Positions 36,468 through 44,521 of a stretch of 52,753 nucleotides of DNA are shown one piece after another. The stretch comes from Candidatus Mediterraneibacter excrementavium (lineage in GTDB: Bacteria; Bacillota; Clostridia; Lachnospirales; Lachnospiraceae). Below the pieces are notes generated by a model. It did not search any database. It was not told the DNA's origin and saw nothing but the letters and a program-made list of their open reading frames with translations. The stretch is from contig DWVL01000031.1 of assembly GCA_019120275.1 (NCBI GenBank), positions 1 through 52,753 on the forward strand, given 5' to 3'. Each line of letters starts with the position of its first letter. Position 1 is the first letter of the stretch. The translations under genes were made by a program, and so were the position numbers.

Positions 36468-36512
36468 CTGTTTTACGAACATTTAACAAACTTGCATTTA
36501 CATGAGTGCGGC

Positions 36513-36566
36513 TCCCTCTGTTATAATGATCCCAGCGAGAGATCATTATGACGGAGGGACTTTTTT
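36513..36566 (+). terminator. glmS terminator
   Basis: TCCCTCTGTTATAATGATC pairs with GATCATTATGACGGAGGGA around CCAGCGAGA, followed by TTTTTT. The stem includes TATAAT, which might also act as a promoter for the next, broken gene. Confidence 0.85.
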
Positions 36567-36595
36567 GTAGTTTTTTTACAGAAGAGCGGATGGAT

Positions 36596-37016
36596 ATGAA
36601 GAATAATATTACGGTACAGATCGGATCCGGATACGGGGATCTGAGGAAATCGGAAAAACAGGCGGCGGATTATATCTTAAATCATATGGAAGAGGCGGCG
36701 GAACTGCCACTTGACCGGCTGGCGGAAGCGGCGAAGGTGAGCCAGCCCACTGTGCTGCGCATGCTGAAAGCCGTAGGGTATGAGGGATACCGGGATTTCC
36801 GCTATCAGCTGGTGGCGGAGCTGGCAAAGACCGGAGGCGCAGGGCACGGACGGGAATCGGACCTGATGTACGGGTATACGCTGGACCGGAAGAAAGGACT
36901 GGATGCGGTGCCCCTGAATATTACAATGACAACGGAGCGGATGCTGGAGGAAACACTGAAGAATCTGCCGCTCAAAACATACCGGAAAGTCATCGATGCG
37001 CTGAGGTCCGCCCGTA
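36596..37016 (+). pseudogene. RpiR/MurR-family regulator, truncated by deletion
   Basis: Residues after the ATG at 36596 match an RpiR-type HTH: LRKSEKQAADYILNHMEEAAELPLDRLAEAAKVSQPTVLRMLKAVGYEGYRDFRYQL, then the linker up to KTYRKVIDALRSAR. This is exactly where the sugar-phosphate-binding SIS domain should begin. Instead the DNA continues as the 3' end of a phnW gene in another frame, so the frame runs on for about 43 unrelated residues to 37144. The HTH alone might still be made, but the sensor is gone. A phosphonate-gene regulator in origin, by position. Confidence 0.8.
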
Positions 37017-37260
37017 TATTGACAGCACGCACCAGGGACCGATCATCACGACCTTCTTTTACCCGGAGAAATGTCATTTTACATTTTCCCAGATGTATGA
37101 ATACATCAAGGACAGGGGCTACGCCATTTATCCGGGCAAGGTGACGGAGGCGGAGACGTTCCGCATCGGCAACATCGGCGAGATCTATAAAGAGGACATC
37201 GAGAAGGTGTGTGCGATCATGAAGGAATTTCTGGAGGAATATAATCATGAAGAAAATTAA
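37017..37260 (+). pseudogene. phnW: 2-aminoethylphosphonate--pyruvate aminotransferase, C-terminal remnant
   Basis: In a frame different from the regulator, the sequence reads YIDSTHQGPIITTFFYPEK, YEYIKDRGYAIYPGKVTEAE, TFRIGNIGEIYKEDIEKVC, closing EEYNHEEN-stop. This is the C-terminal domain of PhnW. The N-terminal ~280 residues, including the pyridoxal-phosphate lysine, are missing, and there is no start codon. It overlaps phnX by 14 bases, as an intact phnW would. Together with the regulator fragment it records one internal deletion of an rpiR-phnW-phnX operon. Confidence 0.85.
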
Positions 37261-38020
37261 GGCAGTGATCTTCGACTGGGCAGGGACCACCGTTGACTAC
37301 GGGTGCATGGCTCCGGTGCAGGCCTTCGTCGAAGTGTTTAAACAGTACGGCATCGAGCCGACGATGGAAGAAGTAAGGAAGCCCATGGGTATGCTGAAGA
37401 TCGATCACATCCGCACCATGCTTCAGATGGAGCGGATCCGCGGCCTGTGGGTTGAAAAATACGGCAAAGAACCGGGCGAGGAAGAGGCGCAGGCGCTCTA
37501 CTCGATCTTCGAGGAGAAGCTCTTAAGCATCCTTCCGGATCATTCCGGGGTGAAGCCGGGCGTGGTGGAGACGGTGAATCGGCTTCGGAGAAACGGGATC
37601 CTGATCGGATCCACCACCGGGTACAACGATAAGATGATGGAGATCGTCGTGCCGGCGGCAAAGGCGCAGGGATATGAGCCGGACGTATGGTTCAGCCCGG
37701 ACTCCACGGGACAGAAAGGACGCCCGTACCCGTACATGATCTTCCGCAACATGGAAGCGCTGGATATCAAGAAAGTGCGCCGGGTCCTGAAAGTGGGCGA
37801 CACGGTTTCGGATATCAAGGAAGGCCGGAACGCCGGCGTGTGGTCTGCCGGCATCGTGATCGGAAGTTCCGAGATGGGACTGACCGAGGAAGAGTACAAT
37901 GCGCTCGCGCCGGAAGAGCAGAAAAAGAGGTGCAGCGAGGTGTCCGACCGGTTTCTGGCGGCAGGCGCGGATAAGATCTTTTATACCATAGATGATTTGG
38001 GAGAGTTCCTGCTCGGATAG
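37247..38020 (+). CDS. phnX: Phosphonoacetaldehyde hydrolase PhnX
   Basis: Splits phosphonoacetaldehyde to acetaldehyde and phosphate. The 257-residue HAD enzyme has FDWAGTTVDYG with Asp10 and the small Ala at the second position of the motif, KPMGMLKIDHIR with the Schiff-base Lys51, GSTTGYN and VKVGDTVSDIKEG. It looks intact, but the partner transaminase PhnW is destroyed just upstream, so its substrate would have to come from elsewhere. GGAGG lies ten bases before the ATG. Confidence 0.93.
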   Translation: MKKIKAVIFDWAGTTVDYGCMAPVQAFVEVFKQYGIEPTMEEVRKPMGMLKIDHIRTMLQMERIRGLWVEKYGKEPGEEEAQALYSIFEEKLLSILPDHSGVKPGVVETVNRLRRNGILIGSTTGYNDKMMEIVVPAAKAQGYEPDVWFSPDSTGQKGRPYPYMIFRNMEALDIKKVRRVLKVGDTVSDIKEGRNAGVWSAGIVIGSSEMGLTEEEYNALAPEEQKKRCSEVSDRFLAAGADKIFYTIDDLGEFLLG

Positions 38021-38073: not shown

Positions 38074-38128
38074 TTTACACAGATTTAACATAACCCTGAT
38101 TTTACATTTTACATTTCTTTTTTATGAT
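38074..38128 (+). promoter_or_regulatory. PhoP box and pst promoter
   Basis: TTTACA (38074), TTAACA (38085, 11 bp later), TTTACA (38101) and TTTACA (38108) form PhoP-like direct repeats upstream of a -10 TATGAT (38123-38128). The -35 is poor, as expected for PhoP activation under phosphate starvation. Confidence 0.6.
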
Positions 38129-38221: not shown

Positions 38222-39145
38222 ATGAAAATGAAAAAGTTTATTGCAGTACTTGCAGCGGCATCAATGGTAGCAGCGATGGCAGTCGGATGCGGCGGAGGAG
38301 AGGACACTTCAGCAGAGGGAACTGACGCAGCAACAGAAGAAGGCGGCGAAGAAGCGGCAGCAGGCGAATGGGATGCGGCCAACATGATCACCGTTGTATC
38401 CCGTGAAGAGGGATCCGGAACAAGAGGAGCCTTCACAGAGCTGTTCGGTGTAGTAGATGAAGAAGACAACGATATGACAACGCTTGACGCTCAGGTAACA
38501 AACAGCACATCCGTAATGATGACAACGGTATCTGAGAATGAGTACGCGATCGGTTACATTTCACTCGGCTCTCTTGACGAGTCACTTGTAAAAGCTGTGA
38601 AGATCGACGGTGCAGAGGCTACGGCGGAGAACATCGAGAACGGATCATACAAAGTATCCAGACCGTTCAATGTAGCAGTGAAACCGGATTCAACAAACGA
38701 AGTGGCAAAAGACTTCATGGCATTCATCATGAGCACAGAGGGACAGGAAGTTGTCTCAGGCGAGGGTTACATCCCGGTATCTGATGTAGAGGCTTATGCA
38801 GGAAGCGCTCCGGAAGGAAGCTGTGTAGTCGGCGGATCTTCTTCCGTATCCCCGCTGATGGAGAAACTCATTGAGGCTTATGCGGCAGTGAACCCGAATG
38901 CATCCATCGAACTTCAGACATCTGACTCTACAACAGGTATGACATCCGCGATCGAGGGAAGCTATGACATCGGTATGGCATCCAGAGAGCTGAAAGATGA
39001 AGAGGCGGCTGAACTTGAGGGCACAGTGATCGCAACAGACGGTATCGCGGTAATTGTAAACCAGAACAACCCGACAGATGATCTGTCAGCAGACCAGGTT
39101 AAGAGCATCTACCTTGGCGATGTGACAACATGGGACGCCCTGTAA
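38222..39145 (+). CDS. pstS: Phosphate-binding lipoprotein PstS, circularly permuted
   Basis: A 307-residue lipoprotein with lipobox AMAVGC (Cys23) and an acidic linker (24-55). Residues 56-192 contain segments normally in the second half of PstS: VSREEGSGTRGAF (phosphate loop), AIGYISLGSL, NGSYKVSRPFNVAV and GQEVVSGEGYIPV. Residues 200-307 contain what is normally the first half: VVGGSSSVSPLMEKL, DSTTGM, YDIGMASRELKDEEA, IATDGIAVIVN and LSADQVKSIYLGDVTTW. All phosphate-contact motifs are there, in swapped order. Mature length is normal. First gene of the pst operon. Confidence 0.93.
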   Translation: MKMKKFIAVLAAASMVAAMAVGCGGGEDTSAEGTDAATEEGGEEAAAGEWDAANMITVVSREEGSGTRGAFTELFGVVDEEDNDMTTLDAQVTNSTSVMMTTVSENEYAIGYISLGSLDESLVKAVKIDGAEATAENIENGSYKVSRPFNVAVKPDSTNEVAKDFMAFIMSTEGQEVVSGEGYIPVSDVEAYAGSAPEGSCVVGGSSSVSPLMEKLIEAYAAVNPNASIELQTSDSTTGMTSAIEGSYDIGMASRELKDEEAAELEGTVIATDGIAVIVNQNNPTDDLSADQVKSIYLGDVTTWDAL

Positions 39146-39226: not shown

Positions 39227-40120
39227 ATGAGATCAAAAGCATGGACTGAGAAATTCATGCAGGGGGTATTTTTCGTGGCTGCGTGCGCGTCTGTCCTGGC
39301 CGTAGCGCTCATCTGCGTATTCCTGTTTGCCAACGGCATCCCTGCAATGAGAGAGATCGGATTTATCAAATTCCTTACGGGAGAGATCTGGCGTCCGAAC
39401 AGCGAGCAGTTCGGGATCCTGCCGATGATCGTAGGAAGCCTTTATGTTACAGCGGGCGCGATCATCTTCGGCGTGCCGATCGGCATCCTGACGTCTGTAT
39501 TTATGGCAATGTACTGTCCGAAGCAGATTTACAAACCGCTGAAGGCGGCTACAGAACTCCTTGCCGGGATCCCGTCGGTCATCTACGGCTTCTTCGGCCT
39601 GGTCGTTGTAGTGCCGCTGATCCGCGAGTTCGGAACAGTTTTATATAAAGCCAATCTTGTAAAGAGTCCGGGAAACGGAAACAGCATCCTGACAGCGTCC
39701 CTGATCCTGGGCATGATGATCCTTCCGACCATCATCGGCACGACAGAGAGTGCGATGCGTGCGGTTCCGGCTCACTATTATGAAGGATCACTTGCACTTG
39801 GAGCGACAAAAGAGAGAAGCATCTTCCGGGTCATCATCCCGGCGGCCAAATCCGGCGTCATCGCCGGCATCGTGCTGGGCATCGGGCGCGCCATCGGCGA
39901 GACCATGGCGGTCATCATGATCGTCGGCAACCAGGCCCGCCTGACGGGAAGCATCCTTGACGGAATCCGTACCCTGACCGGAAATATCGTGATCGAGATG
40001 GGATATGCGACAGGCCTGCACCGCGAAGCGCTGATCGCGACCGGCGTGGTCCTCTTTGTATTCATACTGATCATCAATTTCAGCGTTGCGCTGCTGAAGA
40101 GGGGGGCGGATCATGAATAA
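39227..40120 (+). CDS. pstC: Phosphate ABC transporter permease PstC
   Basis: A 297-residue, six-helix permease with ATELLAGIPSVIYGFFGLVVVVP and the ATPase-contact loop YYEGSLALGATKERSIFRVIIPAAKSGVIAGIVLGIGRAIGET. Forms the membrane channel with PstA. TAGGAGA lies before the ATG, and the 3' end overlaps pstA by eight bases. Confidence 0.97.
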   Translation: MRSKAWTEKFMQGVFFVAACASVLAVALICVFLFANGIPAMREIGFIKFLTGEIWRPNSEQFGILPMIVGSLYVTAGAIIFGVPIGILTSVFMAMYCPKQIYKPLKAATELLAGIPSVIYGFFGLVVVVPLIREFGTVLYKANLVKSPGNGNSILTASLILGMMILPTIIGTTESAMRAVPAHYYEGSLALGATKERSIFRVIIPAAKSGVIAGIVLGIGRAIGETMAVIMIVGNQARLTGSILDGIRTLTGNIVIEMGYATGLHREALIATGVVLFVFILIINFSVALLKRGADHE

Positions 40121-40991
40121 TCACAGAGAAATGGCGAACAAGACATCAATCGGCGATAAGTTCAGGACCTACCTGAAGCATCCGGGCTCATTTATCACAA
40201 TGCTGCTCGTGATGCTGGCGGCGATTATCACATTTGCAGTGCTGATCTTCCTTATCGCATACATCCTGATCAACGGCGTGCCGCACATTACACCGTCCCT
40301 GTTCTCCCTGGAGTACAGCTCCGAGAACGCATCGGTGGTGCCGGCCTTTGTCAACACCATCGCGATGACCCTGCTTTCGCTGATCATCGCAGTACCTTTC
40401 GGCATCTTTTCCGCGATCTTCCTGGTGGAGTACGCGAAGAGAGGAAATAAATTCGTGGAAGTCATCCGTCTGACGACAGAGACGCTTTCCGGCATCCCGT
40501 CCATCGTGTACGGCCTGTTCGGTATGCTGTTCTTCGTCAACGCGCTGGGCTGGGGTTTCTCCCTGCTGGCAGGCGCTTTCACCATCGCGATCATGATCCT
40601 TCCGCTGATCATGAGGACAACAGAGGAAGCCTTAAAGGCCGTACCGGACTCTTACCGTGAAGGAAGCTTCGGACTGGGCGCAGGGAAGCTGCGCACCGTG
40701 TTCCGCATCGTACTTCCATCTGCCATCCCGGGCGTTCTGGCAGGCGTCATCCTGGCGATCGGACGTATCGTCGGCGAGACGGCGGCCCTGATGTATACAT
40801 CGGGAACCGTGGCGCAGATCCCGGACAGCATCATGGGATCCGGGCGTACACTGGCGCTTCACATGTACGTGCTCTCCAGCGAGGGACTTTACATGGATCA
40901 GGCGTACGCGACCGCGGTCATCCTGCTCGTCCTCGTAGTAGGAATCAACGCACTGTCGAGCGTGATCGCAAGAAAACTTACGAAGGCATAA
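40113..40991 (+). CDS. pstA: Phosphate ABC transporter permease PstA
   Basis: A 292-residue, six-helix permease with TTETLSGIPSIVYGLFGMLFFVN and SYREGSFGLGAGKLRTVFRIVLPSAIPGVLAGVILAIGRIVGETAAL. Partner of PstC. Its stop is followed immediately by the second palindromic element. Confidence 0.97.
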   Translation: MNNHREMANKTSIGDKFRTYLKHPGSFITMLLVMLAAIITFAVLIFLIAYILINGVPHITPSLFSLEYSSENASVVPAFVNTIAMTLLSLIIAVPFGIFSAIFLVEYAKRGNKFVEVIRLTTETLSGIPSIVYGLFGMLFFVNALGWGFSLLAGAFTIAIMILPLIMRTTEEALKAVPDSYREGSFGLGAGKLRTVFRIVLPSAIPGVLAGVILAIGRIVGETAALMYTSGTVAQIPDSIMGSGRTLALHMYVLSSEGLYMDQAYATAVILLVLVVGINALSSVIARKLTKA

Positions 40992-41066: not shown

Positions 41067-41816
41067 ATGTCTAAAATAAGTATCAAGAATCTTGATTTAT
41101 ATTACGGGGATTTTAAGGCCCTCAAGGATGTAAATCTTGAGATCGAATCAAATAAGATCACCGCTTTCATCGGACCTTCCGGATGCGGTAAATCTACACT
41201 CCTTAAATCCATCAACCGGATGAACGACCTGGTGGAGGGCTGCCGCATTGAGGGTGAGATCCTTCTGGACGGCGAGAATATTTTTAAAGGCATGGATGTC
41301 AATATGCTGAGAAAACGGGTGGGCATGGTATTCCAGAAACCGAATCCGTTCCCCATGAGCATCTATGATAATATTGCCTTCGGACCCAGGACCCATGGAA
41401 TCCATTCCAAGTCAAAACTGGATGACATTGTGGAGAAATCCCTGAGAAATGCGGCGATCTGGGATGAGTGCAAGGACCGTCTGAAATCAAGTGCGCTGGG
41501 TATGTCCGGCGGTCAGCAGCAGCGGCTCTGCATCGCCAGGGCGCTGGCCGTAGAGCCGGAAGTGCTTCTTATGGATGAGCCGACATCTGCGCTTGATCCG
41601 ATTTCTACATCCAAGATCGAAGACCTTGCGATGGAATTGAAAAAAGACTATACTATAGTCATGGTTACACACAATATGCAGCAGGCCGTGCGTGTATCCG
41701 ACAATACCGCTTTCTTCCTGCTCGGAGAAGTTGTAGAGTACAATGACACAGAGAAATTGTTCTCAATCCCGTCCGACAAACGGACAGAAGACTATATCAC
41801 AGGGAGGTTCGGTTAA
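41067..41816 (+). CDS. pstB: Phosphate ABC transporter ATPase PstB
   Basis: A 249-residue ATPase with Walker [11 protein letters not shown]-loop [15 protein letters not shown], signature MSGGQQQR, Walker [14 protein letters not shown] and switch His in VTHNMQQA. It powers PstCA. The palindromic element separates it from pstA, which may affect its mRNA level. Confidence 0.98.
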
Positions 41817-41819
41817 ATT

Positions 41820-42491
41820 ATGCGTAACAGATTTGATGCACAGCTGCACTCACTGGATGAGCAGCTCACACATATGGGAGAACTCTGCGAGACCGCGATT
41901 GCGAAAGCGACACAGGCGCTTAAGGATGGCAGCGTCGAGCAGGCGAAGATCATTATTTCTGAAGACGAAGAGATCGATCAGTGCGAGAAGGATATCGAGA
42001 GACTGTGCCTGAAGCTCCTGCTCCAGCAGCAGCCGGTGGCGAAGGACTTAAGAAGGATTTCCGCAGCGCTGAAAATGATCACGGACATGGAGCGGATCGG
42101 CGACCAGACGTCGGATATCGCGGAGATCATCATCTCCACTAAAGACCAGACGGCAGCTGTAGATGATATTTCCGAGATCGGAAATATGGCTTCACGTGTC
42201 AGCAAGATGGTGCGTGACAGTGTAACAGCTTATGTAAACCGGGATCTGGAACTGGCCCGGAACGTGATGCAGTCAGATGATGAAGTCGATGCGTACTTTG
42301 ATGAAATCCGTGACAAGATGATCGCCTATATTAAAGACGAAAAAGGACAGAACGGCCGCAAGATCTTTGATCTGATCATGGTGACGAAATACCTTGAGCG
42401 TATCGGCGACCATGCGACCAACATTGCCGAGTGGGTGGAATTCTCCATCACCGGTGTGCACAAAGACAGCGCGATCATTCATGAGAGTTAA
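41820..42491 (+). CDS. phoU: Phosphate signalling protein PhoU
   Basis: A 223-residue, all-helical protein with two PhoU repeats, each with a metal-binding (E/D)xxxD pattern: DLRRISAALKMITDMERIGDQTSDIAE and IFDLIMVTKYLERIGDHATNIAEW. It connects the Pst transporter with the PhoR kinase. Three bases behind pstB. Confidence 0.97.
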   Translation: MRNRFDAQLHSLDEQLTHMGELCETAIAKATQALKDGSVEQAKIIISEDEEIDQCEKDIERLCLKLLLQQQPVAKDLRRISAALKMITDMERIGDQTSDIAEIIISTKDQTAAVDDISEIGNMASRVSKMVRDSVTAYVNRDLELARNVMQSDDEVDAYFDEIRDKMIAYIKDEKGQNGRKIFDLIMVTKYLERIGDHATNIAEWVEFSITGVHKDSAIIHES

Positions 42492-42527: not shown

Positions 42528-43202
42528 ATGATATATTGCGTGGAAGATGACGACAACATCCGCGAACTGGTGATATATACATTGGAGACGACCGGGCTTA
42601 AGGCCAGAGGTTTCGCAGACGGTTCTGCTTTTATGGAAGCTCTGGCGTTCGACACGCCGGAGCTTATTCTGCTTGACATCATGCTCCCCGGCGATGACGG
42701 CCTGGAACTGCTGAAGAAACTGAAATCTTCATCAAAGACGAAGAATATCCCGGTGATCATGGTGACGGCAAAGGGCTCAGAGTACGACAAGGTCGTAGGA
42801 CTGGATTCCGGAGCAGACGATTATGTGACAAAGCCCTTCGGCATGATGGAGCTTGTCTCCCGCATCAAAGCCGTGCTCAGGCGGAGCGGCAAGGTGGAGG
42901 ACCGGACGGATATGGAGACGGCCGGTGTCCATGTGGATGTGAAGAAACATGAAGTCACGGTGGATGGGAAAGAGATTTCCCTGACGCTCAAAGAATTTGA
43001 ACTTCTCGAAAAACTGATGCGCAACCAGGGCATCGTCCTGACGCGGGATCAGCTGCTGACAGAGATCTGGGGGTATGATTTCGACGGCGAGACAAGGACC
43101 GTCGATGTCCATATCCGTACACTGAGACAGAAACTGGGCGACAAGGGCGAGATCATCCAGACCGTGCGCGGTGTGGGATACAGAGTCGGAGGAACCGCAT
43201 GA
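42528..43202 (+). CDS. phoP: Phosphate response regulator PhoP/PhoB
   Basis: A 224-residue OmpR-type regulator. Receiver domain with acidic pocket EDDD, phospho-acceptor Asp50 (LILLDIMLPG) and VTKPF; winged-helix output domain with LTLKEFELLEKLMRN, RTVDVHIRTLRQKLGD and TVRGVGYRV. It should bind the TTTACA/TTAACA repeats before pstS. It overlaps phoR by four bases. Confidence 0.95.
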   Translation: MIYCVEDDDNIRELVIYTLETTGLKARGFADGSAFMEALAFDTPELILLDIMLPGDDGLELLKKLKSSSKTKNIPVIMVTAKGSEYDKVVGLDSGADDYVTKPFGMMELVSRIKAVLRRSGKVEDRTDMETAGVHVDVKKHEVTVDGKEISLTLKEFELLEKLMRNQGIVLTRDQLLTEIWGYDFDGETRTVDVHIRTLRQKLGDKGEIIQTVRGVGYRVGGTA

Positions 43203-44521
43203 GAAAGAAGATCCAGAGAAGCATGGTGATGGTGCTGGCTGTCACCCTGCTTCTTTCTTACGCGATCATAACGATCATCACATATAACAGAAATATAGCC
43301 ATGCTGGAGGCGGAAGTCCGGCAGGAGGCCCGCTATATTCAGGCGGCCATTAATATATCCGGCCCGGATTATCTGGCGGAAATGAACGGGGTGGACTGGA
43401 CGACCCGCGTGACCCAGATCAGTCCTGAGGGTGAAGTTCTCTATGATACAAGACGGGATGAGAGCACGCTGGAAGATCACAGCGGTAGGAAAGAGGTCCG
43501 GGAAGCCCTTGCCTCCGGCGAGGGGGAGGATGTCCGGATGTCCGATACAGTGGGGCAGGAACTGTATTATTATGCACTGCTCCTGGATGACGGGACGGTG
43601 CTTCGCGCGTCGAAATCCATGGATGGCCTGATCGGGACAGCGCTCAATAACCTGCCTGTTATGGCGGGGCTTGCGGTTATTATGATAATCCTCGCCTACT
43701 TCATGGCGAAATGGCAGACAAACCGGCTAGTGAAACCGATCTACGAGCTGGATCTGGAACATCCGCTGGAAAATAAGACGTATGACGAGCTGACGCCTTT
43801 TCTGGAAGCGATGGATAAACAGAACCGGGAAAAGGAAGCGGTATCCAATATGCGGAAAGAATTTTCCGCAAATGTTTCCCATGAACTGAAGACGCCGCTT
43901 ACATCCATTTCAGGATATGCGGAGATCATGAAAAACGGATTGGTCCGCCCGGCGGACGTTCCGGTATTTTCCGAGCGCATCTATAAAGAAGCGCGGCGGC
44001 TGATCAATCTTGTGGAAGACATTATTAAACTCTCCAAACTGGATGAGGAGTCCGTAGAGCTGGAGAAGCAGGAGGTTGATCTCTATGAAATGACCAGAGA
44101 GATTGTCAGCCGCCTGGCACCTCAGGCCCAGCAGCGGAATATCCGGATGGAAGTGACCGGCGAGCCTGTGACTTATTTCGGGATCCGGCAGATCCTGGAT
44201 GAGATGATCTATAACGTATGTGAAAATGCCGTGAAATATAACAATGAAAACGGCCGTGTCTCCGTCTGGGTCGGCAATACTCTGGAAGGCCCGAAAGTGA
44301 CGGTCACGGATACCGGCATCGGGATCCCGGAGGAGCATCATGAGCGGATCTTCGAGCGGTTCTACCGGGTGGACAAGAGCCACTCCAAAGAGCGGGGGGG
44401 CACCGGGCTCGGCCTTTCTATTGTAAAACACGGTGCGCTCCTTCACGGGGCGAAAGTGACGGTGGACAGTGTGCCGGGGAAGGGAACGCGGATCGAGATG
44501 CAGTTCCCGAAGAAGAAGTGA
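43199..44521 (+). CDS. phoR: Phosphate sensor histidine kinase PhoR
   Basis: A 440-residue kinase with TM1 (about 8-28), an extracellular region of ~120 residues, TM2 (152-169), the dimerisation helix with His228 (FSANVSHELKTPLTS), N box CENAVKYNN, G1 VTDTGIGIP, F box ERFYRVD and G2 GGTGLGLSIVKHG. There is no PAS domain after TM2, which is shorter than the B. subtilis protein. Last gene of the pst-pho run. Confidence 0.95.
   Translation: MRKKIQRSMVMVLAVTLLLSYAIITIITYNRNIAMLEAEVRQEARYIQAAINISGPDYLAEMNGVDWTTRVTQISPEGEVLYDTRRDESTLEDHSGRKEVREALASGEGEDVRMSDTVGQELYYYALLLDDGTVLRASKSMDGLIGTALNNLPVMAGLAVIMIILAYFMAKWQTNRLVKPIYELDLEHPLENKTYDELTPFLEAMDKQNREKEAVSNMRKEFSANVSHELKTPLTSISGYAEIMKNGLVRPADVPVFSERIYKEARRLINLVEDIIKLSKLDEESVELEKQEVDLYEMTREIVSRLAPQAQQRNIRMEVTGEPVTYFGIRQILDEMIYNVCENAVKYNNENGRVSVWVGNTLEGPKVTVTDTGIGIPEEHHERIFERFYRVDKSHSKERGGTGLGLSIVKHGALLHGAKVTVDSVPGKGTRIEMQFPKKK

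Follow-up and report, generated by a model that had tools for sequence, protein, structure and literature searches.

The pstS gene of this Candidatus Mediterraneibacter excrementavium contig encodes a true circular permutation of full-length PstS, in which the half that is C-terminal in canonical receptors comes first and the N-terminal half comes last (C-N, not the canonical N-C). The permuted gene lies within the window, the whole analysed stretch of 52,753 nucleotides, as the first gene before pstCAB-phoU and a response regulator/kinase pair. We are fairly confident in the overall reading that this natural circular permutant is the high-affinity phosphate receptor of PstSCAB, and that the permuted form probably originated through tandem duplication, at least twice. 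The relevant features are as follows.

38074 to 38113, plus strand: Pho-box-like cluster 5' of pstS, TTTACA-5-TTAACA and two TTTACA
38222 to 39145, plus strand: permuted pstS, an open reading frame with an ATG start for a 307-aa lipoprotein
38222 to 38290, plus strand: lipoprotein signal peptide of permuted pstS, last residue Cys23, assigned from sequence
38291 to 38386, plus strand: acidic, low-complexity tether linker, residues 24-55, assigned from sequence
38387 to 38779, plus strand: C-type half, placed first, residues 56-186 (SREEGSGTR ... GYIPV)
38780 to 38815, plus strand: 12-residue linker from the old C terminus to the old N terminus, residues 187-198
38816 to 39136, plus strand: N-type half, placed second, residues 199-305 (GSSSVSP ... 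GDVTTWD)
39137 to 39145, plus strand: new C-terminal end (AL, stop) within the former inter-half loop
39227 to 40120, plus strand: pstC (TIGR02138, 296.8 bits, above cut-off)
40113 to 40991, plus strand: pstA (TIGR00974, 282.4 bits, above cut-off)
41067 to 41816, plus strand: pstB (TIGR00972, 418.5 bits, above cut-off)
41820 to 42491, plus strand: phoU (Pfam PhoU)
42528 to 43202, plus strand: PhoB/PnpR-like response regulator (Pfam Response_reg and Trans_reg_C)
43199 to 44521, plus strand: PhoR/PnpS-like histidine kinase (Pfam HisKA and HATPase_c)

Two profiles each match the protein in two stretches: Pfam PBP_like_2 (PF12849) at 118 bits against a cut-off of 27, and NCBIfam TIGR02136 at 191.3 bits, below its cut-off of 206.6. 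In both, the C-terminal part of the protein corresponds to the N-terminal part of the profile, residues 200-305 covering the profile's first half. Sequence searches match the N-terminal part of the protein to the C halves of canonical PstS, and the canonical PDB structures 4q8r, 4gd5 and 1twy each give two aligned segments whose order is swapped. Linear profiles split permuted proteins into two partial matches, a caution for annotators. Against the cores of 57 canonical open reading frames (51 distinct), the best single aligned stretch had a median of 88.7 bits and 131 of 285 residues; with the canonical sequences doubled, the medians were 149.0 bits and 251 residues. As a control, the same doubling brought no gain for 159 permuted relatives, 152 of them distinct (279.8 single, 276.8 doubled). 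The doubling test rules out chance likeness of the halves.

The profiles, PDB alignments and doubling test all agree with the preliminary description, which had placed C-type segments first and N-type segments last. Its further points are also borne out: each half is present once in a full-length PstS (order string CN), neither duplicated nor truncated; a lipoprotein signal is followed by an acidic linker, ending around residue 55; and the old C and N termini are joined, by the 12 residues 187-198. The comparison that it had suggested, alignment with canonical and with doubled PstS, favoured the doubled form in 57/57 cases.

An AlphaFold2 model of the window protein, built on a 58-row alignment of permuted proteins, is one continuous fold (pLDDT 96.7, pTM 0.89). 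Sequential Foldseek comparison of canonical 4gd5, 4q8r and 1twy with this model aligned 131-135 columns only (TM 0.41-0.45), the match over about half that is expected of a permutant in a sequential comparison. One PDB entry, 4H1X, is a close full-length match (TM 0.94, rmsd 1.3 Å, 256 columns in Foldseek), and among the PDB chains listed it aligns as a single stretch (48-306 against 3-263). This protein, Streptococcus pneumoniae SP_2084 (PstS of Pst1; chain title "Phosphate-binding protein pstS 2"), has the same half order and fold over its whole length at 42% identity, and is likewise the receptor of a Pst operon. Within the permuted family it sits on a different branch, a starred set of five permuted rows (98/95*), with its nearest kin in the order around a Streptococcus genome. 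A search of a viral structure library returned weak matches only.

The pneumococcal relative belongs to a studied system. SP_2084-8 encode PstS, C, A and B of Pst1 together with PhoU (PMC6722419); pst1 is induced by low Pi via PnpR, and at 200 μM initial Pi uptake drops about 2-fold when pst1-phoU1 is deleted (PMC4913102). The earlier statement that no functional description was known therefore does not hold, although the available text of that study leaves the permutation unmentioned. The word stem "permut" is absent from the main text of PMC4913102, and "4H1X" goes unmentioned in the literature searched. Apparently, the permutation in this solved structure has passed without remark.

Permuted PstS is common in Gram-positive bacteria. 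Counting genomes in which a match extends over both halves in C-N order, we found it in 33/37 genomes of the genus and 37/61 relatives overall. Lachnospiraceae homologues do share this order, and the four exceptions within the genus comprise one fragment at a contig end, one canonical PstS and two genomes without a match. The corresponding counts were at least 90/294 in the window's order, at least 18/398 in its phylum, 39/148 in the order to which a Streptococcus hillyeri genome belongs (with one match in two stretches), and 5/197 in the phylum around an Adlercreutzia genome, where two of the five lie on contigs longer than 1.6 Mb. Similar gut-clostridial proteins, which had been anticipated, do exist; the family is not confined to them, being frequent in the orders of the window and of Streptococcus and reaching the Adlercreutzia phylum. 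By profiles, 179 distinct open reading frames have the C-N order. The best 80 named loci yielded 81 open reading frames, all permuted; this list was sorted by similarity to a permuted query and is hence uninformative on frequency. Among the matches listed, the nearest named locus is from Candidatus Mediterraneibacter guildfordensis (99%); others include Dorea, Blautia, Streptococcus and Adlercreutzia, as well as drafts labelled Mailhella, Treponema, Helicobacteraceae and Accumulibacter, which could be mis-binned.

Both forms may be found within one genus (G675 and G718 permuted, G696 canonical; G533 and G552 permuted, G456 canonical), and one genome, G088, carries two permuted and one canonical pstS. 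Two permuted pstS genes also stand next to each other in one locus (L081, L094). Genome G002, of the window's genus, had no permuted PstS that we could find, and its canonical PstS (L068) groups with PDB 4exl, as if a permuted receptor had been replaced by a canonical one.

Canonical proteins join their halves through a loop of 8 residues in 51/52 open reading frames, with GG in 50/52. Permuted open reading frames reach their stop 2-5 residues past the profile match in 172/179 cases (range 0-11), with GG there in 0/179, and the join between old C and old N termini measures 12-14 residues in 167/179 (range 11-21). A lipobox-like Cys is present in 160/179. The break thus falls in the 8-residue inter-half loop, between helix and strand; in the model of the window protein, the ends lie after helix 241-249 and before strand 8-12. 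Domain II of E. coli PBP spans about residues 85-257, and by these boundaries we take the inter-half loop to lie within lobe II, with the lobe-crossing strands elsewhere. Judged by these boundaries and the predicted secondary structure, the new termini are probably inside lobe II and not at the lobe hinge, where the preliminary description had, probably wrongly, put the new end. The chain ends of canonical PstS sit in lobe I. With the inter-half loop inside lobe II, that lobe would carry both new termini and, with them, the exit of the lipid anchor, and we infer that permutation would shift the anchor from lobe I to lobe II.

The probable route to this arrangement is an in-frame tandem duplication of pstS to N-C-N-C, after which the outer halves, the first N and the last C, were lost; what remained was C-N, both of its new ends lying in the former inter-half loop. 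Such an N-C-N-C protein can exist. Two genomes of one genus encode a 527-aa tandem PstS lipoprotein before a PstC-like permease gene, with 4 residues only between the profile matches of its two copies:

L051, 1096 to 2679: tandem PstS
L052, 1099 to 2682: tandem PstS

As a receptor, the tandem protein may have two phosphate sites. These proteins as the actual ancestor are ruled out, the two copies being each other's nearest kin; their clustering makes them a parallel case.

Trees were made on both halves set into one order. A first quick tree held 138 rows (130 of 154 distinct open reading frames, four tandem copies and four PDB rows), leaving out 24 near relatives from the genus. A second retained 101 of 140 rows, with 39 near-duplicate or very divergent rows dropped, PDB 4exl and 1twy among them; L168 (end branch 3.9) was further dropped from the AU tests and half-trees. 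One permuted sequence, L118, nests with the canonical L133 and L166 (100/98*). It is 68% identical to L133 in PstS (69% and 64% in the two halves) and 77% in PstC. Its predicted structure is that of a permuted PstS (pLDDT 90.7; TM 0.86 and rmsd 3.4 Å against 4H1X), in a model that is not independent, since 34/35 of its alignment rows are main-family or other permuted proteins. With groups named after a tree had been seen, a single clade of all permuted rows was rejected (dlnL 125, AU p 0.00065), and again in a second sample of 74 of the 101 rows (27 dropped) with 20 added (dlnL 129, AU p 0.0001); the permuted rows minus L118 are compatible with one clade (AU p 0.57). The AU tests thus reject one event for all permuted PstS, on the strength of one sequence, L118, and of groups chosen after the tree. 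Our interpretation is that there were probably at least two events, one giving the large family that includes the window protein and pneumococcal PstS1, and separately one in the L118 lineage. The second permutation, apparent from a single draft-genome sequence, would be an independent one. Three further proteins (L093, L117 and L120) form a divergent permuted subgroup, for two of which, L093 and L117, no pst permease gene was found adjacent; they may have another origin or another role. The long-branched L168 may likewise stem from a further event.

The same trees bear on an account with one ancient permutation only, in which L133 and L166 reverted to canonical order. Permuting twice in principle restores the order, and in the first quick tree of 138 rows, before L166 was added, L118 and L133 paired inside the permuted clade with starred support. 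Once the canonical L166 was included, however, L118 became nested among canonical proteins, and two separate reversions would be required. Moreover, L133 and L166 retain the 8-residue VGG loop, found at the C-terminal end of 0/179 permuted proteins, so a reversion would need to recreate it. We regard reversion as unlikely.

Shuffling, that is, a joining in new order of halves from two different pstS genes, strikes us as decidedly improbable. Some genomes do have several pstS genes, such as the one with two permuted and one canonical, and a mixed origin is raised as a possibility for another permuted binding protein, TpMglB-2, in the available text of PMC4990184. Trees of the N half and the C half nonetheless agree, within their few columns and many unresolved forks: L118 is nearest L133 in both, and the permuted label takes three changes in each. 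The near-equal likeness of L118 to L133 in its two halves (69% and 64%) also speaks against a mixed source.

The loops expected to hold phosphate are largely preserved. Across 62 permuted rows and 39 other rows (35 canonical and four tandem copies), R61, S65, G66 and S206 are kept in 62/62 and 39/39; T67 is kept in 61/62 and 37/39, S236 in 58/62 and 37/39, and D249 in 55/62 and 24/39, respectively. Position 207 (38840 to 38842) is Thr in 39/39 of the other rows, whereas the permuted rows have Ser in 44/62, including Ser207 of the window protein, and Thr in 18/62. We take this position to be the equivalent of E. coli Thr10, and the correspondence of the loops to the E. coli phosphate ligands is likewise our assumption. 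At the level of sequence, then, the phosphate site of the permuted proteins is not letter-for-letter the same as the canonical one, and Ser at position 207 is a possible phosphate-site change going with the permutation.

A pst permease gene lies within 1.5 kb downstream on the same strand in 170/179 permuted open reading frames (of the remainder, six lacked room and three had none) and in 42/52 canonical ones. Within the draft genome of the window, no other PstS-like match is strong; the two found besides the permuted PstS are weak and N-terminal only. As SP_2084 serves in Pst1, and deletion of pst1 together with phoU1 halves initial Pi uptake, the permuted form very probably works, by analogy, as a normal Pi receptor. 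It would bind Pi in the inter-lobe cleft and deliver it to PstCA as ordinary PstS does, anchored by its N-terminal lipid, which would leave from within lobe II, at the inter-half loop, and not from lobe I. It is very unlikely that the protein no longer serves phosphate transport and instead handles another anion or acts in signalling alone. Its sub-threshold NCBIfam PstS score (191.3 against 206.6) and the prevalence of Ser at the Thr10 position might hint at such a change, but the canonical relative L133 also scores under that cut-off (187.3), the remaining loop residues are kept, this is the one strong PstS-like protein of its genome, the gene precedes pstCAB-phoU with a Pho-box-like repeat upstream, and pneumococcal Pst1 contributes to Pi uptake (PMC4913102). 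Last, that the half order is an artefact of assembly or binning, as a draft source in 96 contigs and 86% complete might suggest, has next to no probability and is already refuted for the family of the window protein: the 179 distinct open reading frames from many assemblies and 33/37 genus genomes rule out assembly error, and the same order recurs in records that carry strain titles (Dorea sp. D27, Blautia sp. MSJ-19 and Streptococcus hillyeri), in the single-contig genomes G018 and G028, and in crystallised 4H1X.

Canonical PstS (E. coli PBP; C. perfringens 4q8r/4gd5) shares the two halves, most of the conserved loops and the operon, and differs in its N-C order, with the other break as the site of its termini and anchor. 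Permuted binding proteins as such are already known. TpMglB-2 (Tp0684), a Type Ic sugar-binding lipoprotein, is likewise a natural permutant and a tethered ABC binding lipoprotein, according to the available text of PMC4990184; it keeps ligand binding, and its relatives are mostly in treponemes and Gram-positives. It differs in its Type I/Cluster B fold, ligand and break point, and the close matches of the window protein are PstS proteins, not the Type Ic/Cluster Bc sugar-binding fold. Glycine-betaine-binding proteins are permuted among themselves (CPSARST, PMC2395249, whose references name OpuAC and ProX), and differ from PstS in ligand and family; the long Foldseek matches of the window model include OpuAC structures, at TM 0.40-0.50, rmsd 7-10 Å and 10-15% identity. 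The literature matches listed include no description of a permuted PstS, which does not prove its absence. In PstS, permutation is widespread and apparently recurrent; the second permutation (L118) and the natural N-C-N-C tandem PstS are apparently new here.

In the window's order and the Streptococcus-centred order, as sampled, a large share of genomes has a core nutrient receptor in permuted form. Tethering has been proposed as a possible reason for the permutation of TpMglB-2 (PMC4990184, in the text available). For PstS, we offer as a tentative and rather doubtful idea that permutation is recurrent and selected: in Gram-positive lipoproteins, relocating the tether to lobe II, away from lobe I and the first phosphate loop beside it, would alter receptor opening or docking to PstC/PstA. 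If this were true, L118 and L133, whose PstC proteins are 77% identical, would be a natural before-and-after pair. The apparent recurrence at the same loop, the tandem intermediate and this close permuted/canonical pair make the question of why a binding protein should be permuted testable.

Upstream of pstS, TTTACA-5-TTAACA occupies 38074-38090 and two further TTTACA reach 38113, forming the densest TTWACA cluster on the plus strand. The pneumococcal Pho-box upstream of pstS1 has similar repeats (PMC4913102, available text). A search pattern derived from the pstS-upstream site itself gave one exact and one one-mismatch occurrence, against 0.08 expected at up to one mismatch. The second repeat (36472-36488, one mismatch) lies upstream of genes for an RpiR-type HTH protein and a phosphonoacetaldehyde hydrolase (37247-38020; TIGR01422, 361 bits), which suggests a phosphonate-use unit adjoining the pst operon. 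The RpiR-type regulator (36548-37144) is only 198 aa long with family matches confined to its HTH part; the rest, towards the C terminus, appears to have been lost or frameshifted.
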